DNA from: Methanoculleus chikugoensis
GTDB taxonomy: Archaea > Halobacteriota > Methanomicrobia > Methanomicrobiales > Methanoculleaceae
NCBI RefSeq assembly: GCF_019669965.1
Contig: NZ_AP019781.1
Span: 248,001 to 312,000 of the forward strand
Length of the DNA stretch: 64,000 nucleotides
Direction of reading: 5' to 3'
The notes below the pieces were generated by a model. It was not told the origin of the DNA, did not search any database, and worked only from the letters and a program-made list of their open reading frames with translations. A program made the position numbers and the translations under genes. Numbering within the stretch: the stretch's first letter is position 1; every line of letters starts with the position of its first letter. Below, piece by piece: positions 9,256 through 54,640 of this stretch.

Positions 9256-10424
9256 AACCAGGACGATACGGTATATACGGCGGGCAGTACGTGCCCGAGA
9301 CCCTGATGAGCGCGCTGATCGAACTCGAGGAGACCTACGAGCGGGTCCGCGAGGACCCCGGGTTCTCCCGCAGGCTCTCCTGGTACCTCCGCGAGTACGC
9401 CGGGCGGGAGACGCCGCTCACCTACTGCGGGAACCTCTCCCGCGACCTCGGCTGCCGCGTCTACCTGAAACGTGAGGACCTCCTCCACGGCGGTGCCCAC
9501 AAGCTGAACAACACCCTCGGCCAGGCGCTGATGGCGAAGTTCATGGGCAAGCGCCGGCTGATCGCCGAGACCGGTGCCGGGCAGCACGGCGTCGCGACGG
9601 CGATCGCGGGCGCGGCCCTCGGTCTCCCCGTCGAGGTCTACATGGGGGAGGTGGATACCCGGCGCCAGGCGTTGAACGTCTTTCGGATGGAACTCCTCGG
9701 CGCCCGGGTCATCCCGGTCGCCTCCGGGACGCGGACGCTGAAGGACGCCATCAACGCGGCGATGCGCGACTGGGTGGCGAACATCCGGGATACCCACTAC
9801 CTGCTCGGCTCCTGCGTCGGCCCGCACCCCTTCCCCCGGATCGTCCGCGACTTCCAGTCGGTCATCGGCGAGGAGGCGAGAAGGCAGATCCTTGAGAGGG
9901 AAGGGCGTCTCCCCGAGATGGTCGTCGCCTGCGTCGGCGGGGGTTCGAACGCGATCGGCATCTTCTACCCGTTCGTGAACGACGACGTGCGGCTCGTCGG
10001 CGTCGAAGCGGGAGGCGAGGGGCTCGACTCCGGCCGTCACGGGGCTTCGCTCTCGGCCGGCTCGGTCGGGGTCTTTCAGGGGGCGCTCTCCTACCTCCTC
10101 CAGGACGACGACGGCCAGGCGCTCGAGACGCACTCCGTCGCCGCGGGCCTCGACCACCCTTCCGTCGGGCCGGAGCACGCCATGCTGAAGGATTCCGGGC
10201 GGGTCCGCTACGAGGCGGTCACCGACGCCGAGGCGCTCCACGCCTTCCGCCGCCTCTCCCGCACCGAGGGGATCATCCCGGCGCTCGAGTCCGCCCACGC
10301 GGTCGCCTACGCTCTCCGGGCGGCGGACGATCTCGATAAGGACGACATTCTCGTCGTCAACCTCTCGGGGAGGGGGGACAAGGACGTCGCCGACGTCGCG
10401 AACCTTCACGGGGGCGTCGCATGA
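9252..10424 (+). CDS. trpB: tryptophan synthase beta chain (TrpB1)
   Basis: A 390-residue canonical TrpB1 forming the alpha2beta2 complex with TrpA. It starts [18 protein letters not shown], has the PLP lysine in [12 protein letters not shown] (about residue 80), the catalytic Glu in AETGAGQHG, and [16 protein letters not shown] overlaps join it to trpF and trpA. Its coexistence with TrpB2 in one operon is seen in some archaea. Confidence 0.97.
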
Positions 10425-11257
10425 GCCGGATCGAGGCGCTCTTTGCCCGGAAGAACCCGGTCTTCATCGGGTTCACCGTCGCGGGGGACCCCGGCATCGA
10501 GGCGTCGTTTGGGGTGGCGAAGACGATGATCGACGCGGGCGCCGACCTCCTCGAGATCGCCGCCCCCTACTCCGACCCGGTGGCGGACGGCCCCGTGATC
10601 GAGCGGGCGCACGTCCGCGCCCTCCGGGCAGGGACGACCACGGGCGACGTCTTCGCCCTCGTCCGACGGGTCAGGGAGCATGCGCCGGCAACGCCCCTCG
10701 TCCTCTTCACCTACCATAACATCATCCACCGCCGGGGAGCCGACCGGTTCTTTGCGGAGGCCGCGGCCTCCGGCGCGGACGGCGTCCTCATCGTCGACCT
10801 CCCTGCCGAGGAGTCGGACGAGGTCGCGCCCTACGCCGCCCGGCACGGCGTCGACCGGATCGCCCTCATCGCCCCGACGACGTCGCCGGAACGGCAGCGT
10901 ACCATCCTCAAGGACGCCTCAGGGTTCGTCTACCTGATCTCGCTCGAGGGGGTGACCGGCGAGCGCGACCGGCTCCCCCCCGGCCTCGCCGGGCTCGTCG
11001 GCGCGGTGCGGGAGAAGACCGATCTCCCCCTCGCCGTCGGGTTCGGGGTCTCGCGCCCGGAGCACGTCCGAACCGTCGTCGCCGCCGGTGCGAACGGCGT
11101 CATCGTGGGAAGCGCGCTCGTCCGGCTGATCGAGGAGCACGCGGGCGACGAGGCTGCGATGCACGCTGGCCTCCGGACGGCGATCGCCGCGCTCCGGGGC
11201 GGGTTCGCCCTCGACCCCGAACCTGATATGCTCCGGCGCGAAAGGGTAGAAGGATGA
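10421..11257 (+). CDS. trpA: tryptophan synthase alpha chain
   Basis: A 278-residue TIM-barrel lyase releasing indole from indole-3-glycerol phosphate for TrpB1. The catalytic Glu and Asp are in [16 protein letters not shown] (about residues 46-61). The phosphate loop regions [10 protein letters not shown] and [10 protein letters not shown] are present. It ends in an ATGA overlap with the NAD-kinase-like gene. Confidence 0.97.
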
Positions 11258-12354
11258 GACGGATCGGGTTTCTGGTCAACCCCATCGCCGGGATGGGCGG
11301 CGCCGTGGGGCTCGCGGGGACGGACGGGAAGGTGGCCGAAGCCCTCCGGCGCGGCGCCGTCCCGCGCTCCGCCGACCGGGCGGTGCAGGCCCTCTCCACT
11401 CTCCGGGGTGAGGATATCGAGTGGTGCACCTGCTCGGCGCCGATGGGCGAGAATGTCCTCGCGGCGGCCGGGATCGGCCGTTCCACCGTCCTCTATCACC
11501 CGACTGTCCCGACCGGCGCCGCCGACACGAAGGCCGCGTGCCGGGCGTTCCTCGCCGCCGGAGTGGATCTCATCGTCTTCTGCGGCGGAGACGGGACGGC
11601 CCGGGACGTCTTCGACGCCGTCTGCGGGGGTATCCCGATCCTCGGCATCCCCGCCGGGGTGAAGATGTACTCGGCGGTCTTCGCGGTCAATCCGGCGGCG
11701 GCGGCCGACCTCATCCGCCGGGCGGGCGAGATCCCCTGCCGGGACTCCGAGGTGATGGATATCGATGAAGAAGCCTACCGTTCGGGCCGCCTCTCCGCCC
11801 GGCTCTATGGCTATGCCTGCGTTCCCTTCATCCCTGAGCGGACGCAAGGGGGGAAGCAGGTCTTTGAGCAGCAGGACGAGGAGCGGGCGAAGGATGATAT
11901 CGCGGTGTTCATCAACGAGGTCATGCTCCCGGAGACGCTGTATATCATCGGCGCCGGGAGCACGACGGCACGGATCATCGAACGGCTCGGGCTTGCCCCG
12001 ACGCTTCTCGGGGTCGATGCCGTCAGGGACGGAGAGGTCATTGCCCGGAACGCCGATGAACAGACGCTGCTCGCCCTCCTCGACGACTATCCCTGCTCGA
12101 AGATCGTCGTGAGCCCCATCGGCGCTCAGGGGTTCGTCCTCGGGAGAGGGAACCAGCAGATCAGCCCCGCGGTGCTCCGGAGGGTCGGGCTATCGAACCT
12201 GATCGTGGTCGCCACGCCCGCTAAACTCGCCGCAACACCCCTCCTCTACGTTGACTCGGGAGATGCGGCCCTCGACCGGGAGGTCGGGGACTCTCTCCAG
12301 GTCGTCTCCGGCTACCGGATTGCGCAGCGAAAACGGATCGTCCAGGCCGACTGA
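11254..12354 (+). CDS. ATP-NAD kinase family protein (COG3199 type)
   Basis: A 366-residue protein of the NAD/diacylglycerol kinase fold. It starts [15 protein letters not shown] and has the family GGDGTARDVF motif (about residues 110-119), then GIPAGVKMYS. The C-terminal part (ISPAVLRRVG, IVVATPAKL) matches the archaeal COG3199 subgroup rather than canonical NadK. It is coupled by ATGA overlap to trpA, so it is expressed with tryptophan synthesis; the reason is unknown. Its last 165 nt overlap the opposite-strand Na/Pi symporter-like frame. Confidence 0.85.
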   Translation: MRRIGFLVNPIAGMGGAVGLAGTDGKVAEALRRGAVPRSADRAVQALSTLRGEDIEWCTCSAPMGENVLAAAGIGRSTVLYHPTVPTGAADTKAACRAFLAAGVDLIVFCGGDGTARDVFDAVCGGIPILGIPAGVKMYSAVFAVNPAAAADLIRRAGEIPCRDSEVMDIDEEAYRSGRLSARLYGYACVPFIPERTQGGKQVFEQQDEERAKDDIAVFINEVMLPETLYIIGAGSTTARIIERLGLAPTLLGVDAVRDGEVIARNADEQTLLALLDDYPCSKIVVSPIGAQGFVLGRGNQQISPAVLRRVGLSNLIVVATPAKLAATPLLYVDSGDAALDREVGDSLQVVSGYRIAQRKRIVQAD

Positions 12355-14783: not shown

Positions 14784-15374
14784 TCATCGGGCCTGCCGGC
14801 TGCACTGAGAGGCGAGCGCGAGGAGCATGATGCCGAGCAGCGGGAGCCCAACGTAGACGTAGGCCGCTCCGGCGAACTCATAGAGCGACGGCGAGTCGAC
14901 CCGGATATTCGCCGGGAGTGATGGGGCGAGGAAGAGGCCGTATGCCCAGGCCATGCCGAAGAGACTGATGATCCCCGCCTCGATCACGGAGAACCACGCG
15001 AACGTCCCCTGCCTGAACGGGAGCGCTCCGAGCAGGAGGACGAGGGCCGTCGGGGCGAGGAGCACGGTCGCGAACAGGCTGATCCCGGAGGACTGCGGCA
15101 CCGGGCCGAAGGCGGCGAGTGCCGCAAGAAGCGCCGCGAGCGGCACCGCCGCCCACCACCTGCCGCCCTCCTGCGCCAGAGCGAACGAGAAGAGCGCCGC
15201 TCCCGCGAGCGAGACGATGCAGAAGAGGAGGAGCACCGGCGAGAGGTCTGCAGCCCCGTATATGGACCTGCCGGGGTAGGCGAACCGGGCATACACCCCG
15301 GTCACGGGCACGGCGATGAAGTATGCCGCGGTGAGGGCGAGGGCGAGCGTTTTTCTCTTCGGGGCCGTATCTAT
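14784..15374 (-). CDS. small multi-pass membrane protein, start codon unclear
   Basis: A hydrophobic protein with five or so membrane segments and no recognised family. The first usable start, GTG at 15311, falls inside the first membrane segment. The frame stays open and coding-like back to an ATA at 15374, which overlaps the upstream gene's stop as ATAG and is preceded by GGAGGG. I therefore suggest an ATA start giving 196 residues. It is the second gene behind the minus-strand promoter at 15990-16037. Confidence 0.65.
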   Translation of the reverse strand: MDTAPKRKTLALALTAAYFIAVPVTGVYARFAYPGRSIYGAADLSPVLLLFCIVSLAGAALFSFALAQEGGRWWAAVPLAALLAALAAFGPVPQSSGISLFATVLLAPTALVLLLGALPFRQGTFAWFSVIEAGIISLFGMAWAYGLFLAPSLPANIRVDSPSLYEFAGAAYVYVGLPLLGIMLLALASQCSRQAR

Positions 15375-15934
15375 CCCTCCTCTTCAGCGTGCCTCTCTTC
15401 CCGAAACCCTGGATCGAAGGCGGCGACCGTCCGGAGAACGATATAGAGGATCGCGGCGATGAGCACGCACTCGAGGTAGAACCCGAAGACCGCGAACCCG
15501 GAGAAGAACAGGCGGTAGGCGAGGGTGTCCACCGCGAGCGGCAGGACGCCCATGATGCCGTCGAAGAGCCACCCGAAGACCGGCACGCTCTCCGCGAGGA
15601 GGGGGGCGGGGCCGCCCGGCCACCGGTCCGGGTTGATCACCAGGGCGGCGACGAACGGGACGGTGGCTGCGATGGCGGCGAGCAGCGCCTGCTGCTCTCT
15701 CCTGACCGGGACGGCGCCCGGGATGAGCGGGAGCGGCGTCGCGGCCCCCGCGGCCGCGAGGATGACGATCACGAGAACAAAGACGGGGAGGACGGACGGT
15801 GGCGCCGCCCCCGGTGCCCCGGAGACGGTTCCGGCGATACCCGCCCAGACTGTGCATGCAACGACCGCGACGAGCGGGGGAATGGCCGGCGAGAACCGGC
15901 TCCGGGGAAGAGAGGCGACGATCTTACGCGACAT
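15371..15934 (-). CDS. membrane protein, unknown function
   Basis: A 187-residue protein with about five membrane segments starting MSRKIVASLPRSR. The C-terminal region (LFDGIMGV, FYLECVLIAAI) resembles the 53250-53552 protein (LFDALAEAI, LYLEVFLGAAV), so these two loci share a membrane-protein family. The internal ATG at 15934 is preferred because the frame upstream runs through the promoter repeat. The stop overlaps the next gene. Confidence 0.7.
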   Translation of the reverse strand: MSRKIVASLPRSRFSPAIPPLVAVVACTVWAGIAGTVSGAPGAAPPSVLPVFVLVIVILAAAGAATPLPLIPGAVPVRREQQALLAAIAATVPFVAALVINPDRWPGGPAPLLAESVPVFGWLFDGIMGVLPLAVDTLAYRLFFSGFAVFGFYLECVLIAAILYIVLRTVAAFDPGFREERHAEEEG

Positions 15935-15989
15935 ATTGCACCGTTCTCGGCATGGTTCGGCTCCCGTGTCCTGTAAACCTGCGGGAAAT

Positions 15990-16037
15990 GTCAACGTTCT
16001 TCTATAAACGATTTCTGTCACAATCGTCTACACGTCG
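15990..16037 (-). promoter_or_regulatory. type-1 envelope promoter element, copy 1
   Basis: Read on the minus strand: CGACGTGTAGA box, a spacer, then CACAGAAATCGTTTATAG-like BRE/TATA sequence and GAAGAACGTTGAC. It lies about 65 nt before the 15934 start. It is one of nine copies in the window (here, 16936, 17116, 22139, 25610, 52555, 53676, 56470, 56693), all before membrane or exported proteins. Confidence 0.85.
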
Positions 16038-22138: not shown

Positions 22139-22190
22139 CGACGTGTAGAGGATCGTGACAGAAATCGTTTATAGAGGTACGTCGACCTCT
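22139..22190 (+). promoter_or_regulatory. type-1 envelope promoter element, copy 4
   Basis: CGACGTGTAGA, then GTGACAGAAATCGTTTATAG, then ACGTCGACCTCTCCCG. It precedes the orphan propeptide gene at 22222. Similarity to the 25610 copy continues past the TATA box into the transcribed region (CGTCGACCTCTCCCGC). Confidence 0.85.
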
Positions 22191-22221: not shown

Positions 22222-22776
22222 ATGAGACGCTCCCTCATCGGGGGCGCCGCTCTTCTGGTCTGCGTGTTCGTCGCAGCAGCGGTCGTGCTGGGTGCAGGCG
22301 CTCAGAATCCCGCCGGCGTCCCGGTTCTGGCCGTCGGCGATTCTACACACGTAATCGTCGCGGGCGCGACATCGGTCTCCGACCTTGCAGCCGCCGGGAT
22401 TCCGGCGCCGGATGAACTCAAGATCCCGAAGGGCGCCGGGCGCTACGATATCGTGACGTTCAACCACGCTGCCCTCTCCCGGGAGATGGAAGGCGGCACG
22501 CTTCTCCTTCGCGTCCGCGGAACGGAATACCTTGCCGAGGTGCATCGGATGAACTTCGAGCAGATCGACGACGACATCGACTCCTACGAGGGGAGGATCG
22601 TCGGTGTCGGCGAAAGCGACGTCCTCCTGACGACCTCGGAGAACGGCCTTATCGGGAGCGTGACGCTCGGCCGCGAGACGTTCCGGATCGAGGGGGTCGA
22701 GCCCCGTGCGCGTGCCGAACGGTCGGCATCCCCCCTGCACATCATATACAGTTCGAGGGGTGCGGGATGGTTCTGA
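22222..22776 (+). CDS. orphan metalloprotease propeptide-like protein
   Basis: A 184-residue exported protein: signal peptide (about 1-27), then a domain collinear with the propeptide of the metzincin at 45182 (GDSTHVIVAGATSVSD, YDIVTFNHAAL, MNFEQIDDDIDSYEG, SPLHIIYSS). It stops right where the protease's catalytic part would begin and ends GAGWF. It may be a truncated duplicate or a free propeptide acting in trans as inhibitor or chaperone. It heads a three-gene set that is duplicated, with the full protease, at 45182-47638. Confidence 0.8.
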   Translation: MRRSLIGGAALLVCVFVAAAVVLGAGAQNPAGVPVLAVGDSTHVIVAGATSVSDLAAAGIPAPDELKIPKGAGRYDIVTFNHAALSREMEGGTLLLRVRGTEYLAEVHRMNFEQIDDDIDSYEGRIVGVGESDVLLTTSENGLIGSVTLGRETFRIEGVEPRARAERSASPLHIIYSSRGAGWF

Positions 22777-22821
22777 GAAGCGGCGGTATGAGCGGGAGCG
22801 CGGGATCCCGGAGGAGGTTGC

Positions 22822-23223
22822 ATGGAGCCTGACAGAAAGCGCCTGATTGCCTTAGGGGTTTTCGCGTTCATCGGCGTCGTCGTCCTCGTCGCGGTGACCG
22901 TGTTCGGAGTTACGACCCTCATTGCCCTGATCACGGGAGTCGACGGGCCTCCGAAGGCGTTGACCGTGGAGGTGGTCGGGGAAGGGAAGTTGCAGAACGC
23001 ATCCGTCATCCACCTGACCGACCGGGACCTGAAGCAGCACCCGGTGCTTGCCGCCGCGATCCGGGAGGCCGGCAACGAGTCCAACGTGGTGAGATCTGCG
23101 TCGGTCCCGATGACAGAGGTCGAGTGCCTCGCACTCACCGAGTCCTTCGGCGTGTATACAGCGAATGCGCCGATCCTCGAGTACGATGGAGTATACTACG
23201 CCACTCGCGTCCTGCTCCACTAG
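22822..23223 (+). CDS. one-TM protein of the YEGxYY family
   Basis: A 133-residue protein with one N-terminal membrane segment (about 10-38) and an exterior domain containing VIHLTDRDLKQHPVLAAAIR and, near the end, LEYDGVYY. These two motifs define a family seen six times in this window (22822, 23247, 25780, 27331, 46715, 47192). The closest copy is 46715-47164, in the same relative position of the duplicated cassette. Function unknown. Confidence 0.75.
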   Translation: MEPDRKRLIALGVFAFIGVVVLVAVTVFGVTTLIALITGVDGPPKALTVEVVGEGKLQNASVIHLTDRDLKQHPVLAAAIREAGNESNVVRSASVPMTEVECLALTESFGVYTANAPILEYDGVYYATRVLLH

Positions 23224-23246
23224 GCTCGCGTCAAAACAGGTGCAGA

Positions 23247-23744
23247 ATGGAAGACGGTAAGAAACCCGGCAACCGGCTCAGAACGGCGGGACTCGTCGCC
23301 GCGTGCGGCCTTATCGGCATCGTCGCCGTCGCACTCGGCTTCATGCTCGCCGACGCTCTCATCATCTACGCGATGGAGGGTTCGGGCGGGCAGCCAATGC
23401 TCTACGTCATGGAGCAGGCGGAGCCGGGAGAGAACGTGGTCGTCCCCCTGACCGAGCGGGACTTTGCCGACCACCCGGCGCTCGATGCGGTCATCCGTGG
23501 CGACGAGCGCAACCCGTCGGCGTGGGAGTGGGGTATGAGCGACCGGCGCTTCATCGGGGGAACCAACGTCTCGTATGCGGAGAGCAAGGCGCTCCAGGAC
23601 ACTTACGGCCCCGACCGGGAGACGTGGGTCTACCCGCACCTGGAGTACGAAGGGGCGTACTACCTGGTGGTGACGACGTGGCCGTGCAGGGGGGTTTTAG
23701 CCGGATGGCGGGTGCGCTCTGGAAGGTCGCAGAGGGTACGTTGA
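23247..23744 (+). CDS. one-TM YEGxYY-family protein with stop-loss extension
   Basis: A 165-residue protein: one membrane segment (about 11-37), the motif VVPLTERDFADHPALDAVIRG, NPSAWEWG, YAESKAL, and LEYEGAYYLVV. It is very similar to 47192-47638, which stops directly after TTWP. Here the stop is replaced by TGC and the protein runs on for 19 basic residues (CRGVLAGWRVRSGRSQRVR). The start ATG at 23247 aligns with that of the paralogue; the longer upstream frame overlaps the previous gene. Confidence 0.75.
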   Translation: MEDGKKPGNRLRTAGLVAACGLIGIVAVALGFMLADALIIYAMEGSGGQPMLYVMEQAEPGENVVVPLTERDFADHPALDAVIRGDERNPSAWEWGMSDRRFIGGTNVSYAESKALQDTYGPDRETWVYPHLEYEGAYYLVVTTWPCRGVLAGWRVRSGRSQRVR

Positions 23745-25609: not shown

Positions 25610-25661
25610 CGACGTGTAGACGATTGTCACAGAAATCGTTTATAGAAGAACGTCGACCTCT
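25610..25661 (+). promoter_or_regulatory. type-1 envelope promoter element, copy 5
   Basis: CGACGTGTAGA, CGATTGTCACAGAAATCG, TTTATAGAAGAACGTCGAC. It is the closest match to the window consensus, and precedes a transcript of three genes beginning at 25780. The 25541-25779 gap holds only this promoter and an untranslated region. Confidence 0.85.
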
Positions 25662-25779: not shown

Positions 25780-26211
25780 ATGACGCCGTCGCGTCATGAG
25801 AAGGGCACCCGGCTGAAGCGATACCTCATCGCGGTCGTGGTCGCCGGGCTCCTCCTGTTCGGCTGCTACGTCGCTGTTTCCTCCTACATCGCCGCGACCA
25901 TCCCGCCCGACGAACTCCTGCTCTACGAAGTCACGGAGGAGACGGCCCGGGAGGGTATCGTCATTCCCCTCGATGAGGAGATGTTCCGGAACCTGCCCGT
26001 CCTGGACGCGATCCTCCGGGGTGAGGGGCATGAGGACGAAGGGGGCCCGTATATGCCCGGGGACATCCGGTTGGTGGGGAGCGTTGAGTACCCGGAGAAG
26101 ATCCGCCAGGAGACGATTGATGCCTACATCTTCGATAGCGAGACCGGCAAGCGGAAGTACTTCGAGTATGAGGGCCGGTATTACCGGGTCGGGACGATTT
26201 ACCGGGACTGA
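25780..26211 (+). CDS. one-TM protein of the YEGxYY family
   Basis: A 143-residue protein with a basic N-terminus, one membrane segment (about 14-38) and the family motifs in diverged form: IVIPLDEEMFRNLPVLDAILRG and FEYEGRYYRVG. It is first behind the type-1 promoter at 25610. Function unknown. Confidence 0.72.
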   Translation: MTPSRHEKGTRLKRYLIAVVVAGLLLFGCYVAVSSYIAATIPPDELLLYEVTEETAREGIVIPLDEEMFRNLPVLDAILRGEGHEDEGGPYMPGDIRLVGSVEYPEKIRQETIDAYIFDSETGKRKYFEYEGRYYRVGTIYRD

Positions 26212-27330: not shown

Positions 27331-28143
27331 ATGACAGAGAAACGTTCGATAATCCCGGCGCTCCTCCTCACCGCCGCAGTCACGGCGCTGGCGGCGGGCT
27401 TTGCGGCTTTCGCGCCCGTCGCAGAGGTCACCGTAACCCCGCATGAGCAGATTGCCCCACAGGATCAGGCCCTGGTCCATATCGACTTCTTCACGGAGAA
27501 GAGGGATGCCCCGGTCGAGGGCGTGGATATCCTCTCCTCGATCCTGCGTTACGAACTCGCGGTCTACGATACAGAGGGTATCCATGATCGCCTGCTTTCC
27601 GGCGAACCGCTGGCGGTGCATATCGCCGGGCAGCCCTGCACGGCGGTTCTCGAGGAGTCGTTGCACGGCACCGGCTCCTTCACCGGCACCCTTTCCGGGG
27701 ACGGCAGGGCGCACCTGACCATCAGCGGCGACGTCCTTCGCGGCTATTTCGAGACCGGCGGCGTCGCATACTGGGTGGAGAGCACCGGGCGGTACGACAC
27801 CGAATCCCCGGGGAAGGTCATCCACTATCTCTTCTCCTCCGCCGACGTGAAAGGGCTGAGCGGCTGCTATCTCACGCTCTACAACATCAGCAACGGGGAT
27901 CTAAAGGATTCCGGGTACCCTGCAGGCTGGACGGAAGCTGACTTCCTGAGTGCCGGCCACGAGATCGTCCCGCTCACCGATGCCGATCTCGTCGACCTCC
28001 CCAGGGTGAACGAGACCCTCCGCACCGGCTTTATGGAGGTTCCGCTCTCCGAGAACGAGACGATGCGCATCGTAGAGGGTTACCGGGGGAAGATCGCGGA
28101 GTATCGCGGGAACTACTACGTGATCGACTTCATAACGGCCTGA
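27331..28143 (+). CDS. exported protein with C-terminal YEGxYY-family domain
   Basis: A 270-residue protein with an N-terminal membrane segment (about 6-28), a middle exterior region unlike its neighbours, and a C-terminal 65-residue part with IVPLTDADLVDLPRVNETLR and AEYRGNYYVIDF, a diverged version of the family domain. It directly follows the PGF-CTERM gene (ATG 1 nt after its stop, in GTGAGATGA) and is likely co-transcribed. Confidence 0.72.
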   Translation: MTEKRSIIPALLLTAAVTALAAGFAAFAPVAEVTVTPHEQIAPQDQALVHIDFFTEKRDAPVEGVDILSSILRYELAVYDTEGIHDRLLSGEPLAVHIAGQPCTAVLEESLHGTGSFTGTLSGDGRAHLTISGDVLRGYFETGGVAYWVESTGRYDTESPGKVIHYLFSSADVKGLSGCYLTLYNISNGDLKDSGYPAGWTEADFLSAGHEIVPLTDADLVDLPRVNETLRTGFMEVPLSENETMRIVEGYRGKIAEYRGNYYVIDFITA

Positions 28144-36456: not shown

Positions 36457-36495
36457 GTTCGGTTCCAGCCGAACGATGACTGCCGATTTTATATG
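36457..36495 (+). promoter_or_regulatory. type-2 promoter, copy 1: 18-bp palindrome and TATA
   Basis: Palindrome GTTCGGTTCCAGCCGAAC (36457-36474), 12 nt, then TTTTATATG (36487-36495). Just upstream is GGTTTATGATGT and, at 36421-36434, a small inverted repeat GGGATCATTATCCC. Similarity between copies begins near 36382 and runs through the leader into the coding region. Confidence 0.85.
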
Positions 36496-36514
36496 TTATA
36501 ACGACCCAGAATCG

Positions 36515-36679
36515 CGTTGGGTGCCGCGTGCGGTACCCGTTTGTGTGCGGGGGTCTCCCATCCCCGGTTGACGCCCCGGATGACGCGCCCCGCAAGCCCG
36601 GAGGCAAAGGGAACGTAAGCGTTCTGCGTGCTTAAATATGTGCCTTTTCTGCCTCCGGAAAACTACAGGAGGAAAGTAA
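36515..36679 (+). ncRNA. structured leader RNA, copy 1 (candidate riboswitch)
   Basis: Predicted untranslated leader from the TATA position to the ATG. Stems: GGGTGCC/GGTACCC (36519-36525/36532-36538); GCGGGG/CCCCGC (36547-36552/36588-36593); P1 CCGGAGGCA/TGCCTCCGG (36598-36606/36650-36658) enclosing P2 GAACG-TAAG-CGTTC (36611-36624) and a weaker P3 with loop TTAAAT. The CCTCC of P1 can instead pair with the GGAGG ribosome binding site (36669-36673). No matching known riboswitch class is recognised. Copies 2 and 3 carry compensating changes in P2. Confidence 0.75.
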
Positions 36680-37423
36680 ATGAACGGAAAAACCGGATTG
36701 CAGGCATTTCCCATGCTCCTGGCGCTGCTGCTGGTGAGCGTGGTTATGGTGCCCGCAAGCGCATACTATTATTGTTGTGCAGAATGGGTGAACAACTATC
36801 CCCCACCATCCGACTTGGAGCACAATGATGAAAACGCACAGGGGTTTTACTACCAGCTCGGTGGTGACTCATCCTGGTGGGGAGACTTTATCTATGGCGA
36901 TGGTCAGGCCCTGGAAAGACACTGGAAAGATCCCAGTAAGTCCGGAAACGGTATAGACTATATTTACACAGATGATACACATTTTGCGTTCTTTTCGGGC
37001 CATGGTGCCCCAGAAGGATTTGCATTTTCCTCCTCCCAAGACGATACCTTCCTGAGTTACAGTGATGCTCTCTGGGGAAACACGCAGATGGACTGGATTA
37101 CCATTGATGCCTGCACTGTTCTGCGCGAGAATAGCCATACAAATTGGTACAATGCATTTGGCGGCCTACACTCGATGACCGGGTTCCATACTGAATGTCA
37201 CGATGTCTCGGACAGAGGCTCTAACTTCGTACACCGGATGGTCGGTACGTGGACCACCCAACCGATCATCACGGCATGGTTCATTGCAGCGAAGGATACA
37301 GAGCCTTCGACCACGTATGCGGCAGCCCTTGCCCGAGAAGGCTGCTGGTCCGATTATGTCTACGGGCACGGGAGCCAGGGGACACCCGGAACGTCGTTCC
37401 TGTACGGTACGTACCAGTGTTGA
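36680..37423 (+). CDS. secreted caspase-like (clan CD) cysteine peptidase candidate
   Basis: A 247-residue exported protein with a signal peptide (MNGKTGLQAFPMLLALLL, cleavage about 28). It has the clan CD core: a hydrophobic strand ending in His-Gly (FAFFSGHG, His108) and a second strand ending Asp-Ala-Cys (WITIDAC, Cys145), the catalytic dyad order of caspases, gingipains and C25-like families. The remainder is aromatic-rich. Expressed from the type-2 promoter and structured leader. A PepSY-like gene follows after 9 nt. Proteolytic activity is inference. Confidence 0.72.
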   Translation: MNGKTGLQAFPMLLALLLVSVVMVPASAYYYCCAEWVNNYPPPSDLEHNDENAQGFYYQLGGDSSWWGDFIYGDGQALERHWKDPSKSGNGIDYIYTDDTHFAFFSGHGAPEGFAFSSSQDDTFLSYSDALWGNTQMDWITIDACTVLRENSHTNWYNAFGGLHSMTGFHTECHDVSDRGSNFVHRMVGTWTTQPIITAWFIAAKDTEPSTTYAAALAREGCWSDYVYGHGSQGTPGTSFLYGTYQC

Positions 37424-37432
37424 GGTGATCAC

Positions 37433-38395
37433 ATGAACATGAAACTAATTGGAGTTAGTGCCGGTGTCCTGGCGCTTCTTGGAGTCATCTGCGTTGTCAG
37501 CATACCCGTGTTTTTCAGCGACAGTCATACACCTGACTGTGGTCAATCCAACCAGATAGGTGGCGTGAAATCGGCGGGTGCTGCAAACCTCACCTACACC
37601 GCCTCTGTTCCGTTCCCGCCGACGCCTGCGGAGGTTATCCTGTATCGGGTGCTGGAGCCGGAGATCACGACGGAACTTGTCTCATCGATGGCGGAGAAGA
37701 TAGGCCTGAAGGGAACGGTGCGCGAATCGTACGACCAGATGCTGCTCTCCGATGAACCCCACTCGTTGGAGGTTCATATGAAGTCGGGGAGAGTCGCTCT
37801 GATTGATATCCCCCGTTGGATGAACCCGAACGACAAAGACCTGCCGGAAAGCCTTCCTTCGGACGATGAGGCGATCCAGATCGCAACACAGTACCTGGAG
37901 GAGACCGGGCTGATGCCCCCCGATGCAATCCTGTGTGGCGTTGCCCACCCCCAAATCGTTGAGTATAACGAGGATGGTGAGGTGATCGGTATCGCCTTTG
38001 AAGACGTCCAGGTCTCTTACTCCCGCACAATCGACGGTCGGCCGGTTGTGGGTTCGAAATTGACGGCTGAGATCGGCGGCGGCGGGGATATCCTGAATGT
38101 TTACAAACTCTGGAGAGACTATGCCCCGGAGAAGGAGATAGCAGTCATAACGCCACAGGAAGCTTTTGAAGAATTGAAGGCGACTGGGCTGGCGGTCGAC
38201 GGAAAAGGCCCGACCGCGGTTATCACCGGGATCGAACTTGGGTATTATGAAGCACCGGCGATGGATGAGCCTACCTACCTCGTCCCGGTCTACATCTTCA
38301 GGGGCGAGGTGCGGGATGAGACCGGGGGAACCGCATTCGTCAGATACATCCCCGCGTCCCCCGACCTTGGGGAGGGTATCCCGGCGGTAAAGTGA
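37433..38395 (+). CDS. PepSY/YcdB-like exported protein
   Basis: A 320-residue protein with one N-terminal membrane segment (about 5-28), then an exterior region of PepSY-like repeats: DDEAIQIATQYLEETGLMP (about 143-161) and TPQEAFEELKATGLA (about 241-255), each a helix followed by strands. Such domains occur as protease propeptides or inhibitors. The perfect ribosome binding site AGGTGATC links it to the caspase-like gene. Paralogue of 49244-50185. Confidence 0.72.
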   Translation: MNMKLIGVSAGVLALLGVICVVSIPVFFSDSHTPDCGQSNQIGGVKSAGAANLTYTASVPFPPTPAEVILYRVLEPEITTELVSSMAEKIGLKGTVRESYDQMLLSDEPHSLEVHMKSGRVALIDIPRWMNPNDKDLPESLPSDDEAIQIATQYLEETGLMPPDAILCGVAHPQIVEYNEDGEVIGIAFEDVQVSYSRTIDGRPVVGSKLTAEIGGGGDILNVYKLWRDYAPEKEIAVITPQEAFEELKATGLAVDGKGPTAVITGIELGYYEAPAMDEPTYLVPVYIFRGEVRDETGGTAFVRYIPASPDLGEGIPAVK

Positions 38396-38433
38396 CCGCC
38401 CCAGGTTCCTCTTCTTTTTCGGAGCGAAATTCT

Positions 38434-39009
38434 ATGAAGAAGATTCTGTACCTCGTCATCACCTGTGCCGCCGCGGGCATGCTGGTCCTGGTTGGAATAC
38501 ATATACTCCCGAACCCGGATCTGCAAGGGCCGGGTGAGATACCGACGGAGGTTCCGGAGAACCGAACACCCCGCCCGACAGGCGTTCCCCGGGAGAATAC
38601 ATCGTTTATCGAGATTCATCATGCAGGAGACCCGGGCGTTATCCTCTATCCAGGAGATCCCGGGTATCCTGCCATCGAAGCAGAGTGCCGCGAGCAGATC
38701 CGGAGCACCTGTGGTCAGTATAAGATGGGGTTCTCGCGGGTTGAGCTGGACGCCATGAAACAAAACGACACCTATGTCGCGATGCATCTCCCTGCTCCCA
38801 CGAGATTCGAGACGGGTTATATCGTCGATGGGTCGCCGAAGGAGATCCTTGCAGACGAAGCGGTCTTCTTTCTGGATTTCGAGGACTGGCCGGAGAACAT
38901 AATCATCATGCGACTGGGAGATGTTTGCGGGGTCTGGGACGCTTCGCGCGACCGGGAAAAACTTCGGGTTCTGGCTGATCCGTTTTTGGTCGGTCGGGCC
39001 GCGTCCTGA
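38434..39009 (+). CDS. membrane-anchored exterior protein, unknown
   Basis: A 191-residue protein with one N-terminal membrane segment (MKKILYLVITCAAAGMLVL) and an exterior domain with YVAMHLPAPTRFETGYIVDG and GDVCGVWDASRDREKL. The C-terminal half recurs as a frameshifted fragment at 50808-51077. I recognise no family. The ATG at 38434 is preferred over an upstream in-frame ATG because the signal anchor starts there. Confidence 0.68.
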   Translation: MKKILYLVITCAAAGMLVLVGIHILPNPDLQGPGEIPTEVPENRTPRPTGVPRENTSFIEIHHAGDPGVILYPGDPGYPAIEAECREQIRSTCGQYKMGFSRVELDAMKQNDTYVAMHLPAPTRFETGYIVDGSPKEILADEAVFFLDFEDWPENIIIMRLGDVCGVWDASRDREKLRVLADPFLVGRAAS

Positions 39010-39029
39010 CAGGCGTAGACGGTCAGTGG

Positions 39030-39062
39030 TATATATTTGCATTTCGTCTGTTCAAAACAGAC
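39030..39062 (+). promoter_or_regulatory. TATA box with perfect 7-bp-arm palindrome
   Basis: TATATAT (39030-39036) is followed by GTCTGTT-CAA-AACAGAC (39046-39062), a perfect inverted repeat at the expected start region. No gene begins here. The decayed equivalent at 51099-51130 lies directly before the ATG of the transglutaminase-like fragment, suggesting the gene once following this site was lost. It could also act as a stem-loop ending the 38434 transcript. Confidence 0.45.
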
Positions 39063-39288
39063 CCGTCCAATCGGCAGAATACGATCAACGCCTCCGCGCC
39101 GGCAACCGGGATGTATGAGGGGAATAGTTTTCGGCGGTCTTTGCCGGGAACAACTGCGACGGTGCCCGGTTCCGTGGGGGGAGGTTCGACGAGCGTGGCA
39201 GGGCCGTGACCATTATCCCGGCGCCCGACGGCGGGTCCTGTCTCCAGGGGCAGGAATTATTGTCCTGCCATAAGAAGGTTTATGATGT

Positions 39289-39327
39289 GTTCGGTTCCAG
39301 CCGAACGATGACTGCTGATTTTATATG
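39289..39327 (+). promoter_or_regulatory. type-2 promoter, copy 2
   Basis: Palindrome GTTCGGTTCCAGCCGAAC (39289-39306), 12 nt, TTTTATATG (39319-39327). The inverted repeat upstream is CAGGA-N7-TCCTG (39251-39267), with arms different in sequence from copy 1 but still complementary. The 39063-39288 stretch holds no gene. Confidence 0.85.
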
Positions 39328-39346
39328 TTCTAACGACCCAGAATCG

Positions 39347-39511
39347 CATCGAGTGCCGCATGCGGTACCCGCTTGTGTGCGGGGGCACCCATCCCCGGTT
39401 GACGCCCCGAATGACACGCCCCGCAAGCCCGGAGGCAATGGAAGTGTATGCACTTCCTGCACTTGAAGGTATGCTCTTCCCGCCTCCGGGGAAAAACCGG
39501 AGGAAAAACAG
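39347..39511 (+). ncRNA. structured leader RNA, copy 2 (candidate riboswitch)
   Basis: P1 CCGGAGGC/GCCTCCGG (39429-39436/39482-39489); P2 GGAAGTG-TATG-CACTTCC (39440-39457), seven perfect pairs with sequence different from copies 1 and 3. Alternative pairing CCTCCGG (39483-39489) with CCGGAGG (39497-39503) would bury the ribosome binding site completely; this is the strongest switch-like arrangement of the set. The hairpin near 39351-39370 keeps its GCRTGC loop. Confidence 0.75.
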
Positions 39512-40516
39512 ATGAACGGAAAAATTGGACTGCGGGCATTCTCCACACTCCTGGCGATAATGCTGGTGAGTGTGGTGATGGTGCCGGCGATGGCAATGGA
39601 TGCCGGGGCACTCGATATTGAGAAGCTGGACATCGTGGATCCTGCAACACTTCAGGAACGATCTCCCTCGTTCATCAGCGAACTCCGAAGCAAAGGATGT
39701 TCCGAAGAAGAGATTGCCGAGGCAATCCGTAGCCTGCCGCGAGTTTCATACCTTGACGGATGGACAGAGGCTGATGACGAACGGGTATCGCCCCTTTTGC
39801 AACAGGCAAGGGATGAGGTGAACTATTCGATGTACGGCGAGATAGATCCTCTGACAGAGGATGGCGTTTCGGCAGTAAAGATGTGTTCTTCAGGCATCTG
39901 GCTGTTTGACACAGTTTTTCAGGGTGTTAATGGATGGGTACATCCCGGACTGATGGAATGCTCCTCGGATGGCACCAGACGCCAGTTTCTTACGACCCAT
40001 CTTGGAAAAAAGATCGGTACGACCGCTAACTGGATCGAGATAGGTATAGAGTCAGTCTGCGATGATCCGAATCCGGCTCGCTACCATGTTTTCACCTATG
40101 ATAACAACAACATATCACGACCGATGGTTGTGCATAGTAACCTTACCAACGGCGACAGGGATTACAATTTCGAGATCTACGTAAGTGACGTGCAGTACCC
40201 GGAGGGCTATCCCTATATGATCTTATGGGAAGGACAGGTCGTCCGGGTCGGTCACGTTCCGTTTGCGGAAGGCGATCTGAACGAGGTACACGAATACGTC
40301 AGAAACGATCCCGGATCATTCTCCGATGTATCAACCTCCTATGTGTGTGATTCCTACGTCTATTACGACGGATATGGTGTATGGTGGAACGAGCAGCTGG
40401 ATGCACAGTTAGCACACCCGACACAGCTCCATGCAGATACGCAGGAAGGTGTTTATGGCGATTTCTACAGACCATGGTGGTCGAATGCATACAGAATCGA
40501 CACGTGGATCGCGTGA
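39512..40516 (+). CDS. secreted protein, unknown, with shared signal peptide cassette
   Basis: A 334-residue exported protein. The signal peptide (MNGKIGLRAFSTLLAIMLVS, cleavage about 29) is nearly that of the caspase-like and metzincin proteins, but the mature part is unrelated: a helical region (about 30-105), then a beta-rich domain with GWVHPGLMECSSDGTRRQF and YPYMILWEGQVVRVGHVPF. The beta domain may be a lectin- or neprosin-like jelly roll; I cannot confirm it. Driven by type-2 promoter copy 2. Confidence 0.7.
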   Translation: MNGKIGLRAFSTLLAIMLVSVVMVPAMAMDAGALDIEKLDIVDPATLQERSPSFISELRSKGCSEEEIAEAIRSLPRVSYLDGWTEADDERVSPLLQQARDEVNYSMYGEIDPLTEDGVSAVKMCSSGIWLFDTVFQGVNGWVHPGLMECSSDGTRRQFLTTHLGKKIGTTANWIEIGIESVCDDPNPARYHVFTYDNNNISRPMVVHSNLTNGDRDYNFEIYVSDVQYPEGYPYMILWEGQVVRVGHVPFAEGDLNEVHEYVRNDPGSFSDVSTSYVCDSYVYYDGYGVWWNEQLDAQLAHPTQLHADTQEGVYGDFYRPWWSNAYRIDTWIA

Positions 40517-40910
40517 ACAAAGAAGAATAGGGTTGATGGTAATCATCTCAGTCCTCCTTTTTTGTTGTACGGGTTGCGTTGAAGAGCAACCGGTGAATCA
40601 ATCGAAATATATCAATATTTCACTTACAGAACCCATCTCTCAAGCAGATGCGGTCATCGTTGCCCTTTCCTATCCGGGAGTTGCTAAAACAATTGAGAAT
40701 GATTCGTTCCGGATCACCGTCGGAAAGCTCACCGTCTCTGACGTACGTGAGGGAAGGCTTAAAGAACACCATATGGTCTACATCGATCGCTTCAATAGCA
40801 CTACGCACGAACCGCTCGAAGGTTTACAGGTTATTGTGACCTACGACGGGGACGTTTACAAAATCTGGCGGTCGTTCCCTCCAGTTAATTCTTCAATTGC
40901 TGCAGAGTGA
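40488..40910 (+). CDS. lipoprotein, unknown
   Basis: About 140 residues. The hydrophobic segment MVIISVLLFCCTGCVEE ends in a lipobox (Cys in TGC). The exterior part has a helix-strand pattern (ISQADAVIVALSYPGVAKTI then GLQVIVTYDGDVYKIW) resembling one PepSY unit. Start uncertain: ATG 40488 keeps two Arg before the hydrophobic stretch, ATG 40536 does not overlap the previous gene. Confidence 0.6.
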   Translation, partial: HTESTRGSREQRRIGLMVIISVLLFCCTGCVEEQPVNQSKYINISLTEPISQADAVIVALSYPGVAKTIENDSFRITVGKLTVSDVREGRLKEHHMVYIDRFNSTTHEPLEGLQVIVTYDGDVYKIWRSFPPVNSSIAAE

Positions 40911-40935
40911 ACAGCCTCTGCAGGACCTGGTATAG

Positions 40936-41276
40936 ATGCCAGCCCCGGAGCCCACCCCGGCAAAAGAGCCCGGGCGGGCCGGGAACCTGACTGTCATCCG
41001 GGCAACCGGGGATTCGAAACCCCCGCAGGCCGTCCCGATCCTCTCGTCGTGGAGGGATATCGGACCGGAGATATGTGAGCCGACCGAAGAAGATTGGGCT
41101 TTTGTCAAAGATGCCGCAACGGATCTGTCGGAAGAAGAGAAGACCCGGTTTGTTACAGAGGTCAGAAAGATACCTGCGGGGAATCGACACTGCCCCCGGA
41201 GGAGCAGGTCGATCTGGAGAGGGGACTTGGGTACTACCTGATTAAGGCAACCGAGGGAGTAGAGACAGCCCTTTAA
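40936..41276 (+). pseudogene. frameshifted remnant of an exported protein
   Basis: The first frame reads PAPEPTPAKEPGRAGNLTV to about EVRKIP near 41177. The natural ending (PPEEQVDLERGLGYYLIKA, then stop at 41276) lies in a different frame after about 41180. There is no signal peptide, although a Pro/Glu-rich linker suggests one was present. This is probably the C-terminal remains of a surface protein. Confidence 0.55.
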
Positions 41277-41435
41277 CTGCTGAACGATCCAGCCGTATCT
41301 GTAGTATTACTATGCCGGCGATCAGGTCCTGGCGTACCGATCGGCAGATCCCCCTTCCTGTGTGTTCCCGGGGTTATCGAGTTCTTCGTAGTTAAACCAG
41401 GGATGGTCGGTGATCGGGTTGCGTCCCCTCCTGCC

Positions 41436-41800
41436 CTACAGTAGCACCGTCGTCATCAGCGGAACCGTAACAGACGACCCGTTCGTCGAGACAAAGACGA
41501 TCTGAGAGGTATGCCGGGCGTCGGCAAAGACCCGGGTGAGGAGGGGGGCGACACTTGCCGCGCAGATCCGCCAGTTGTCGACCATCTCCCACGCCAGGAA
41601 TGTTACGTGCATCGTCCCGACGATGATCATCGCAAATGGTGTGGTTACCCGGCTGAGGGGGTCGACCGCATCGATGGATGGGGCTCGTGCTCTCCACCGA
41701 GCCGACGGAGGCGCGATCCCGATCGAAAAACGGGGAGGTTGAAGGTGGCGACGTAGAAGGGGAAGTCGTCGCCGAAGAGCGGCTGTGCGGACAGGAAAGA
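41436..41800 (-). pseudogene. degraded AEC permease copy
   Basis: Segments match the intact AEC gene at 35263-36195: LFGDDFPFYVATFNLPVF (other frame, about 41740-41800), TTPFAMIIVGTMHVTF, MVDNWRICAAS, and SQIVFVSTNGSSVTVP to the stop. An internal part of about 44 codons is missing and at least one frameshift is present. The gap 41277-41435 has no supported gene. Confidence 0.75.
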
Positions 41801-41802
41801 AA

Positions 41803-42276
41803 CTACGCCGGTATAGGGGCGGTTCTCCGCCGGCACCGCAACGCGATGTACCAGAGCACAAATGTCACGCCGAGGAGCGCCTCGCCCGCGTAGAGGAGGA
41901 GGGGTTCCCTGACGACGCTCCCCCCCTGGACGACAAAACCGCGGAGATACGAGGTCACGCAGAGCACCCCGGCAGTCATGGCAACCAGGGATGTGCCGAG
42001 GAGGAAGATGATCCGGTGGTCTCTCCCGGGATGAAGGATCCGCCGCCCCTTCTCCGTCAGGGTGTAGTCCCGCCATTTCCGGGCGTTCTCGTGGGCCACG
42101 AGATCCGCATCGGCCAGAACGGCAAGGTGTTCGTGGACAGTCGACTTTGCAAGACCGAGCCCGTCGGCGAGCTCGCTCATCGCCATGGGCCGGATATCGA
42201 GCGCTTTGAGGATAGCGACCCGGACGTCGGAGGATAGCGCAGCGATATCGCCCCGGTCGAGCGTGACTTCTTCCAT
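41803..42276 (-). CDS. membrane-linked winged-helix regulator (ArsR-like)
   Basis: A 157-residue protein. The N-terminal winged helix (about 8-80) has VRVAILKALDIRPMAMSELADG and LAKSTVHEHLAVLADADLV. Two C-terminal membrane segments (about 94-115 and 125-148) anchor it. Such fused regulators may respond to membrane or envelope state. The ATG at 42276 is preferred to the one at 42315. Co-oriented with the exported-protein gene at 42396-43211. Confidence 0.8.
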   Translation of the reverse strand: MEEVTLDRGDIAALSSDVRVAILKALDIRPMAMSELADGLGLAKSTVHEHLAVLADADLVAHENARKWRDYTLTEKGRRILHPGRDHRIIFLLGTSLVAMTAGVLCVTSYLRGFVVQGGSVVREPLLLYAGEALLGVTFVLWYIALRCRRRTAPIPA

Positions 42277-43211: not shown

Positions 43212-43237
43212 TGTATCACATTAGGAAAAGAGGTGAT

Positions 43238-44014: not shown

Positions 44015-44029
44015 GATTGAATCATCCCA

Positions 44030-44956: not shown

Positions 44957-44995
44957 GTTCGGTTCCAGCCGAACGATGCCTGCTGATTTTATATG
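44957..44995 (+). promoter_or_regulatory. type-2 promoter, copy 3
   Basis: Palindrome GTTCGGTTCCAGCCGAAC (44957-44974), 12 nt, TTTTATATG (44987-44995). Similarity to copy 1 begins about 75 nt further upstream. It is divergent from the minus-strand promoter 130 nt away. Confidence 0.85.
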
Positions 44996-45014
44996 TTTTA
45001 ATGACCTCAAAATG

Positions 45015-45181
45015 CGTAAGGTGCCGCATGCGGTACCCGTTTGTGTGCGGGGGTCGCCCATCCCCGGTTGACGCCCCGGATGACGCGCCCCGCAAGCCCG
45101 GAGGCAACAGGATGTACACATTCTGCGCACTTAAACGTGTGCTTCTCCTGCCTCCGTGGACAGAAACTGGAGGAAAACGAA
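45015..45181 (+). ncRNA. structured leader RNA, copy 3 (candidate riboswitch)
   Basis: P1 CGGAGGCA/TGCCTCCG (45099-45106/45149-45156); P2 GGATG-TACA-CATTC (45110-45123, one G-U pair); P3 GCGCAC-TTAAAC-GTGTGC (45125-45142). CCTCC (45151-45155) can alternatively pair with the GGAGG ribosome binding site at 45169-45173. This copy shows the three-way junction most clearly. Confidence 0.75.
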
Positions 45182-46714: not shown

Positions 46715-47164
46715 ATGAAATCGAAACATGACAGACGTTTGGTTATCGAGGGGGTTCTGGCGTTCATCGGCGTCATCCTCCTCGTTGCGATGGTTGTGCT
46801 CATGTGCACCGCCCTCTTCAACTGGCTCGAAGCAAGCGGTGGATCCCCGAGATTGGACGTCTGGGAGATCAGGGGCGAACTGCCGCCGGAAAATGCATCG
46901 ATCATCCACCTGACCGAGAAAGACTTCGAGCAGCACCCGGCGCTCGACTCCGCAATCCGGGGCGACAACCGGGGTCCCGGACCCTGGTATTCGGGAGACA
47001 CACCGTACGGTGTCCTCGACGAGCGAACGATTGGGAGCGCTCCGGTGACATACCTAGAACGGGAAGTACTTATCGAGTCGTTTGGTCCCGATGTCGAGGC
47101 GAGAAACCAGCCGTACATCGAATACGAGGGTGCGTATTACTACTTTCTCATCCTGATCCCCTAA
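46715..47164 (+). CDS. one-TM protein of the YEGxYY family
   Basis: A 149-residue protein: basic start, one membrane segment (about 11-37), IIHLTEKDFEQHPALDSAIRG (about 62-82) and IEYEGAYYYF near the end. Paralogue of 22822-23223 in the duplicated three-gene cassette. The ATG at 46715 follows an AAGAGGT ribosome binding site; the longer upstream frame is not supported. Confidence 0.75.
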   Translation: MKSKHDRRLVIEGVLAFIGVILLVAMVVLMCTALFNWLEASGGSPRLDVWEIRGELPPENASIIHLTEKDFEQHPALDSAIRGDNRGPGPWYSGDTPYGVLDERTIGSAPVTYLEREVLIESFGPDVEARNQPYIEYEGAYYYFLILIP

Positions 47165-47191: not shown

Positions 47192-47638
47192 ATGGAAGAA
47201 GATAAAAATCCGAAATCAAGAAACCGGCTCAAAACGGCGGCCCTCGTCGTCGCCTGTGGTCTTGCCGGCGTCATCGCCATCGCGCTCGGCCTCATGCTCG
47301 CCGACGCCCTCATCATTTACGCTCACGAGAGTTCTGGGGAACAGCCGATGTTCTACGTTATGGAGAGAGCGGAGCCGGGGGGGAGCGTGATCGTTCCCCT
47401 GACTGAGCAGGACTTCGAACAGCACCCCGAACTCGCCGCAGTCATCCGGGGTGAGGAGCGGAACCCCTCGGCGTGGGAGTGGGGCTACCGGGATCAACGT
47501 GTCATCGGGGGAACTAAGGTCTCGTACACGGAGAGCAAGGCGCTCCATGATGCCTACGGTCCCCGAGAGGGGAGGGGGCTGTACCCGCTCATGGAGTACG
47601 AGGGTGCGTATTACGTGGTCCTGACGACATGGCCCTGA
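47192..47638 (+). CDS. one-TM protein of the YEGxYY family
   Basis: A 148-residue protein nearly collinear with 23247-23744 (membrane segment, VIVPLTEQDFEQHPELAAVIRG, NPSAWEWG, YTESKAL, MEYEGAYYVV) and ending TTWP. It is the intact form of the pair, and shows where the 23247 copy lost its stop. Function unknown. Confidence 0.77.
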   Translation: MEEDKNPKSRNRLKTAALVVACGLAGVIAIALGLMLADALIIYAHESSGEQPMFYVMERAEPGGSVIVPLTEQDFEQHPELAAVIRGEERNPSAWEWGYRDQRVIGGTKVSYTESKALHDAYGPREGRGLYPLMEYEGAYYVVLTTWP

Positions 47639-53752: not shown

Positions 53753-54640
53753 ATGCGGGTAATCAAAATACTCCTGATATTGGCGCTCATCCTCCCGGCG
53801 GGCTCCGCCGCCGCTCCGGCGCCCTCCACCGGGGGCACCACGAACTGGCTCGATACCTTCGACGAGTGGGCCGGGCCGCGGGATATGTCGATGTACAATC
53901 CGGTCATTGAAACCCCGCAGAGGGTTCCGATCACTGAGGAGATCGCACGGCAGCACCCCGGCCTGATCCTGCTCGATGAGAACGTGACGTTCCCCGACGC
54001 CGGATACGTGGTGGCGCCGGGGCTGCCGTCCGGCCCTACGGTTGGTGTTGTCATGACCGATCCTGCGTACTTCAGTCCGGTTCCGACGGCCGGCGGGGCG
54101 AACCTCACAAGCCTTCCGCCCCTCCGGGAGTACGACCTCGTGATCGCCGATCCGGTGTCGTTCGTCGCCGACGCGGGTTCGGGCAGCCCGGTGGCGCTTC
54201 ACCTCCCCGGCCGGAAGTTCGTGCTCGACCTCGAACCGGTGCCGGGCCCCGTTGCCGGAAACGCCCGTGCGTTCGTCAAGAACGAGTCGGGCACGTTTGA
54301 AGTCGCTCCTCTGCGGATCTGGTTCTTCGAGGGGATCGTCGCCGGCGAGCCCGGGAGTTCCGCCTCGTTCATGGTCGGCGACGGCGTGATCCTCGGGACG
54401 ATCCGGTGCGGCGCGACGTCGCTCGCCATCGGCCAGGCCGGGACGGTCGAGGTCGGCGGGGAGCAGAAGGTCGTGCACATCATTTACGACGAACGGGACG
54501 TCATCCCGAAATTCTGGCCCCTGGCTACCGACGTCTGCGTGACGCCGTCCGGGACCGGGGGCTCTCCGGAAGCTACCGGGGCCCGGGTTGCAAGCCTCGC
54601 AAAGAGCCTGATCGACGCTATGGGGCCGGGAAGAGCCTGA
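53753..54640 (+). CDS. exported M12B-propeptide-like protein
   Basis: A 295-residue exported protein: signal peptide (about 1-20), an N-terminal part without parallels, then about 120-250 with REYDLVIADPVSF, RKFVLDLEPVPG, WFFEGIVAGEPGSSASF and ILGTIRCGATSLAIG, ending near VVHIIYDERDV. The order matches the propeptides of 22222 and 45182, but no zinc site follows. It may be a protease inhibitor, a propeptide in trans, or a binding protein using the same fold. Confidence 0.68.
   Translation: MRVIKILLILALILPAGSAAAPAPSTGGTTNWLDTFDEWAGPRDMSMYNPVIETPQRVPITEEIARQHPGLILLDENVTFPDAGYVVAPGLPSGPTVGVVMTDPAYFSPVPTAGGANLTSLPPLREYDLVIADPVSFVADAGSGSPVALHLPGRKFVLDLEPVPGPVAGNARAFVKNESGTFEVAPLRIWFFEGIVAGEPGSSASFMVGDGVILGTIRCGATSLAIGQAGTVEVGGEQKVVHIIYDERDVIPKFWPLATDVCVTPSGTGGSPEATGARVASLAKSLIDAMGPGRA

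Follow-up and report, generated by a model that had tools for sequence, protein, structure and literature searches.

Two gene sets in the genome of the archaeon Methanoculleus chikugoensis, each made up of a prodomain-bearing gene followed by two genes for small membrane proteins, raise the question of what a protease prodomain is doing as a gene of its own. We examined this question in a window of 64,000 nucleotides (G000:C1:248001-312000) of a genome that comprises one contig of 2.62 Mb. Cassette 1 (22222-23744, on the Lon side) consists of P0005, S1a and S2a, and cassette 2 (45182-47638) of P0004, S1b and S2b. These parts probably restrain or partner secreted proteases, because relatives without such a protease also keep the prodomain and the small membrane proteins.

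Two paralogous cassettes in one window

The original prediction held that the two sets match gene for gene, and this was borne out: they are true paralogues in the same order, with DNA matches between them at E 2e-103 (76%) and 6e-55 (71%) and a weaker remainder. S2a and S2b are 70% identical, S1b and S2b 38%, and P0005 and P0004 57%. The proposed reduction of the cassette-1 protease to its propeptide was likewise upheld, as was the common origin, with the gene carrying the prodomain alone. The description of two YEGxYY proteins in cassette 1 is correct for the 165-aa protein, but the motif of the 133-aa protein reads YDGVYY.

Five clear members of the small-protein family were found in the whole genome, every one within this window (Table 1). 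Because S3 lies nearby and the order prodomain-S1-S2-S3 is seen in two relatives (with the prodomain adjoining S1 in G019 and one gene apart in G030), the cassette-1 set probably once comprised four genes and was later split by two lipoprotein genes.

Table 1. Positions of the genes and control elements in the window.
Feature	Position	Strand	Description
Type-1 control motif	22168..22189	+	TTTATA box plus ACGTCGACCTC; before cassette 1; 0 mismatches
PRO-only (P0005)	22222..22776	+	184 aa; stand-alone adamalysin-type prodomain, N-terminal signal/TM segment, without catalytic domain
S1a	22822..23223	+	133 aa; one-TM YxGxYY-family protein
S2a	23247..23744	+	165 aa; one-TM YEGxYY protein, C-terminal extension past its homologues
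Second type-1 control motif	25639..25660	+	before S3
S3	25780..26211	+	fifth member of the small-protein family
Fusion protein	27331..28143	+	N-terminal TM, prodomain-like domain and C-terminal YxGxYY domain
Type-2 leader motif	36545, 45045, 48059		motif matches in the window
Promoter-leader-signal-peptide unit, repeated	36480-36743, 39312-39575, 44980-45245, 47994-48262
Type-2 promoter region and ~165-nt leader	44988..45181	+	part of a repeated unit extending into the signal peptide
P0004	45182..46543	+	453 aa; complete zymogen of a secreted metzincin, made up of a signal peptide, a prodomain and a catalytic domain that bears HELGHLFDAGH
S1b	46715..47164	+	149 aa; one-TM YEGxYY protein
S2b	47192..47638	+	148 aa; one-TM YEGxYY protein; model pLDDT 84
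Prodomain-like protein without catalytic domain	53753..54640	+	295 aa; contains a prodomain-like stretch; its longer counterpart in G007 has a PepSY-like C-terminus

The metzincin, its prodomain and the small membrane proteins

P0004 is probably an archaeal adamalysin-type (M12B) zymogen, a classification made because its prodomain matches that of human ADAM17 in both sequence and fold. A profile of P0004 and its relatives aligned with human ADAM17 at E 2e-8, a match that takes in the prodomain and reaches into the beginning of the catalytic part, and Foldseek with the prodomain model returned four ADAM17 entries (E 1.1e-4 to 8e-4). With VIA, the top match of the same model was 6o38_H (Z 9.1; 3.2 A, 109 residues), and ADAM17 was matched at Z 8.6 (3.8 A, 114 residues). 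An ADAM-type prodomain ahead of the catalytic domain was present by profile, Foldseek and VIA. In the model, fair confidence was reached only in the prodomain, with blocks at about 50-80 pLDDT, and the catalytic part came out poorly. Compared with HEXXHXXGXXH, the zinc motif has the three His and the Glu, with D for G. The curated M12B domain model gave P0004 21.9 bits against a cut-off of 27 bits, which the homologues L114 (33.5) and L210 (35.9) pass. A cysteine switch in the prodomain is typical of many M12B members and is not required in the wider family; there is no Cys in residues 30-200 of P0004.

The C-terminal loop of the ADAM17 prodomain fills the substrate groove (PMC11248996). P0005 ends at the prodomain core, and the segment next to it, the one that fills the active-site groove in ADAM17, is absent; several PRO-only proteins stop soon past this core, and some orthologues keep about 20 residues more. 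Because that loop has no counterpart in P0005, the free prodomain may dock on the protease without fully blocking it, which weakens a model of pure inhibition.

The S proteins appear to form a new one-TM family of Methanomicrobiales. Within this order 64 of 199 genomes carry it, as do 13 of 38 genera, with the named relatives falling in Methanoculleus or Methanomicrobiales bins. Their topology was judged from sequence and model to place the N-terminus inside and the domain outside. An ordinary known small-protein family was considered and rejected, with no Pfam or NCBIfam match over the cut-off and no PDB sequence match; the PepSY and FTP models of Pfam gave no hit either. The fold of the S domain gave no convincing match (best Foldseek E 0.32, to 4pwu, MzrA; VIA Z about 3.3 for the soluble domain) and so lends no support to an inhibitor fold, and a literature search found no paper on these archaeal genes.

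Control elements, exchange and selection

The prediction that the cassettes stand behind two different control elements was confirmed. When up to three mismatches were allowed, each motif was found three times in the whole genome, every copy inside the window, where about 0.01-0.02 matches would be expected by chance. In the genomes read, the cassette-1 operon has the type-1 motif upstream of it, with or without the prodomain gene, and the motif likewise stands before S3 and detached prodomain genes; the exception is G002, with a degraded cassette-1 set and a nearest type-1 match of four mismatches. Elsewhere in the window, a type-1-like motif (3 mismatches) precedes a membrane protein gene at 15371-16008 (-). 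It was also noted that in G007 and G012 (L078:8744-9478, L107, L076) a ~245-aa extracytoplasmic protein with a similar N-terminus (MNQTHIG) replaces the prodomain after the type-1 motif, and that a relative of this protein sits between the prodomain and S1 in G030.

The type-2 motif precedes P0004-type proteases (G000, G005, G006, G008, G009, G033). It also stands before S3-linked proteases in G019 and G027 and before further metzincins in G007, G012 and G027; in G017 and G032, the leader is recognisable in its 3' part only. Matches to 336 bases of the type-2 unit are more widespread, with seven places in G000, and the unit continues into a common signal peptide (MNGKxGxxAFSxLLAxxLVSV) on different secreted proteins. 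Among the loci read, 87 distinct copies of the unit were counted, family-wide, and its leader forms one hairpin that carries paired changes across 83 distinct copies. The leader had no match in Rfam and is a candidate cis-regulatory RNA.

To place the cassettes in time, trees were built from 52 stretches around relatives of P0004 and P0003, which were found in 28 and 29, respectively, of the 40 genomes of the taxonomic family that were searched. The S1 and S2 trees each part into a cassette-1 and a cassette-2 group common to many species, save for a handful of intermediate copies, and orthologues of each cassette's genes are present across Methanoculleus. Judging from these trees, both lineages are older than the sampled species and neither set was recently copied from the other. 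A recent local duplication is thereby rejected, and the proposal that one set was recently duplicated and then came under new control finds no support: the type-1 element accompanies the lineage of cassette 1, and the block that holds cassette 2 was exchanged recently.

Over 16.4 kb, that block (36597-53027) shares 99.3% identity with G006, against ~92% in the backbone and flanks. Large parts of it are 98-99% identical in G007, G008, G009 and G033, its GC content drops, and the P0004 protein is identical in G000, G006, G008 and G009. Because the block is so nearly identical in another species compared with its flanks, cassette 2 was evidently exchanged recently between Methanoculleus species rather than duplicated in place. 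A search of viral contigs and PLSDB plasmids for viral or plasmid carriage found no relative.

Several other genes were recorded in the block and its surroundings. At 36680-38395, the first gene (36680-37423) encodes a secreted protein assigned to DUF6345 (Pfam E 1.3e-50) that has SGHG and DAC motifs and looks clan-CD-like by eye, and the product of the next gene matches FTP weakly. At 43238-44722 (-), a secreted protein (44030-44722; NGHG and ACHT motifs, also clan-CD-like by eye) is succeeded, after a gap of 16 bases, by a PepSY protein (E 2.7e-13). A secreted-protein remnant (48161-48428, C39-like by eye) lies behind a type-2 leader. A 500-aa protein at L079:17048-18547 joins a prodomain-like domain to a PepSY-like C-terminus, of which the window copy at 53753-54640 has 295 aa only.

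The PRO-only genes, found in 11 genomes, form one clade in the careful tree (support 95/98), and the truncation of the protease to its prodomain was a single, ancient event. FastTree placed these genes nearest the S3-linked proteases; the careful tree gave no settled placing of the PRO-only genes, the cassette-2 proteases and the S3-linked proteases relative to one another. Purifying selection was seen in all gene classes, with median dN/dS of 0.37 for PRO-only, 0.44 for S1a and 0.29 for S2a; a pseudogene status for cassette 1 is rejected on these values and on conservation. For S2b the median was 0.15 in orphan copies and 0.21 in copies with a protease, and the constraint on the small genes was not relaxed by loss of the neighbouring protease.

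Association with proteases and proposed function

It had been predicted from the conserved order that the small proteins work with the metzincin. A link between them is supported by adjacency in four families and by a fusion beside a second metzincin, but the protease is not needed in cis. Among 40 S1-S2 pairs, an intact protease gene lies within 600 bp upstream in eight and a prodomain gene in five; one pair follows a frame-shifted protease, one has a prodomain one gene away, and 25 have neither protease nor prodomain. The original prediction named small genes regularly lacking the protease as a refutation of the partnership, and taken literally this is what was found, in these 25 pairs and in several near-complete genomes with no detected metzincin. 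PRO-only genes are kept in four genomes with no Reprolysin_5 match (G002, G030, G035, G029) and small proteins in six (G010, G011, G018, G004, G015, G026), and a P0004 search of these genomes found no full-length protease. PF13688 is a weak probe for the P0004 subfamily, and a divergent protease could be missed because the model finds P0004 itself at E 7.6e-4 only. The 25 solitary pairs, together with the genomes in which no metzincin was detected, indicate that the small proteins need no protease in cis. S1b of G018 is joined directly to a type-2-like leader and signal peptide upstream of it; this reads as a protease deletion, so that the orphan state would be at least partly due to loss.

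The gene immediately after a full metzincin is a YxGxYY gene in G036 and in G019/G027 (S3 type), and the same holds outside the family for G100 (L207) and G067 (L210); YxGxYY genes come after catalytic fragments in G039, G067 (L209) and G104 (L195). This adjacency spans families f1, f2, f4 and f6, and chance is a very unlikely cause since each tested genome has only 0-2 detected Reprolysin_5 proteins. In addition, a fusion of 285-306 residues (N-terminal TM, prodomain and C-terminal YxGxYY domain; HHalign 94%, E 1e-7) follows a second metzincin, as at L079:11627-12544 after the metzincin at 10232-11572, where the TM was judged by eye; the fusion in the window has no metzincin beside it. Away from the metzincin loci, part of the S family is found behind genes for another secreted family, of ~460 residues and with a similar signal peptide, and other S homologues follow unrelated or cytoplasmic genes. 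The ~460-aa family (DYCIGQITP motif, no Pfam match over cut-off) precedes YxGxYY genes at L200, L205 and L206, and partially at L203 and L208, in other families of the order.

Our preferred reading, held with about even confidence, is that these proteins are extracytoplasmic regulators of secreted proteases (inhibitors, chaperones or immunity factors) and that cassette 1 is a protease-free regulatory set. It draws on the homology of the prodomain to that of ADAM17, the single PRO-only clade, the adjacency across families, the fusion, and the upkeep of PRO-only and S genes by selection where no metzincin was detected. Homology, gene order, the fusion, purifying selection and protease loss are what the sequences show; binding, inhibition and protection are inferred from them. 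Cassette 2 would supply a secreted M12B metzincin zymogen and two small proteins, each anchored by one N-terminal helix with a ~95-residue domain outside the cell, and cassette 1 would supply the same regulatory parts, a free prodomain and small proteins, without the protease. The prodomain would fold onto the catalytic domain and block it, as in ADAM17, a free copy would block it in trans, and the small proteins would tether or reinforce the block at the cell surface. The cell would in this way limit damage by its own protease or, where it encodes none, by that of a neighbour. When supplied in trans, the ADAM17 prodomain remains attached to the protease and acts as an inhibitor (PMC11248996), ADAM12 can be inhibited by its own recombinant prodomain (PMC4609913), and CpaB, which is membrane-bound and encoded beside an adamalysin-like protease, blocks the active site with its tail (PMC7542363).

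A dedicated chaperone set, with the prodomain and S proteins helping the metzincin to fold, tethering it and delivering it for secretion in the manner of CpaB and CpaA, and not primarily inhibiting it, seems rather unlikely to us. In its favour, a short chain from the CpaA-CpaB complex is the top VIA match of the prodomain model, CpaA depends on CpaB for its secretion (PMC4713064), and the fusion, whose gene comes after that of a metzincin, begins with a TM segment. However, loss of the client should remove a chaperone, yet purifying selection maintains PRO-only and S genes without a detected metzincin, and P0004 already has its own prodomain. Such retention speaks against a purely dedicated chaperone and is expected of immunity or of a new role alike. 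That S1/S2 and PRO-only were recruited from protease modules as envelope proteins for another surface task (sensing, the S-layer or a different secreted enzyme) would suit the 25 solitary pairs, the S homologues behind the ~460-aa family and the presence across genomes of cassette 1's own control element. We nonetheless regard it as quite unlikely, as P0005 is still zymogen-prodomain-like at its 57% identity to P0004 and the metzincin linkage recurs across families. Orphan S genes may, against our preferred reading, have acquired other roles. That cassette 1 is a mere decaying remnant of a protease cassette is highly improbable: the catalytic domain is gone and truncated or frame-shifted family members occur in a few genomes (G002 S1a, G022, G027), but one old truncation is kept in 11 genomes with dN/dS of 0.14-0.62, which largely contradicts decay, and the type-1 motif is conserved.

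A wider form of the regulator reading is rather unlikely. One promoter-leader-signal-peptide unit would be joined to different secreted hydrolases (metzincins, DUF6345 and others), each followed by an anchored or secreted regulator (YxGxYY, prodomain, PepSY), in a modular archaeal system of conflict or self-protection where cassettes that lack a protease, cassette 1 among them, would make their carriers immune to the enzymes of relatives. This is suggested because the DUF6345 and 44030-44722 (-) proteins of the block precede FTP-/PepSY-type proteins and S genes follow the ~460-residue secreted family. The locus offers a natural case of an ADAM-type prodomain as its own gene, kept by selection even without a detected protease, and an uncharacterised small membrane protein family of methanogens tied to secreted proteases. 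Archaeal trans-acting prodomains and their membrane-bound partners can now be tested as inhibitors or immunity factors.

Among known systems, the set resembles the M12B zymogen ADAM17 in the sequence and fold of its prodomain, in the HEXXHxxxxxH catalytic domain that follows and in the precedent for trans inhibition. It differs in being archaeal, in lacking a disintegrin or TM part and a prodomain Cys, in having D rather than G at motif position 8, and in its stand-alone prodomain genes. With CpaA-CpaB of Acinetobacter it shares an adamalysin-like secreted protease and a neighbouring membrane-anchored partner, and the best VIA match of the P0004 prodomain is the 118-residue chain H of 6o38, which by its length we take to be CpaB. 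The entry 6o38 is the CpaA-CpaB complex (PMC7542363). The fusion at L079:11627-12544 adjoins a metzincin gene, which may parallel CpaB; P0005 has no protease beside it, and the fold match comes from the prodomain of P0004. In the archaeal set the protease carries a prodomain itself and is accompanied by additional YxGxYY proteins, and no dependence on a type II secretion system is known for the archaeal set. Peptidase/PepSY-type regulator pairs, two of which lie in the same block (43238-44722 and 36680-38395), likewise place non-catalytic prodomain-like proteins beside secreted proteins, although the YxGxYY proteins match no PepSY/FTP Pfam model. Unlike polymorphic toxin/immunity systems, the set has no known trafficking domain; at the level of genes alone it resembles them in a common N-terminal module on which the enzymes are swapped, in a block of recent exchange and in orphan partner genes (PRO-only and S) that are kept without the enzyme.
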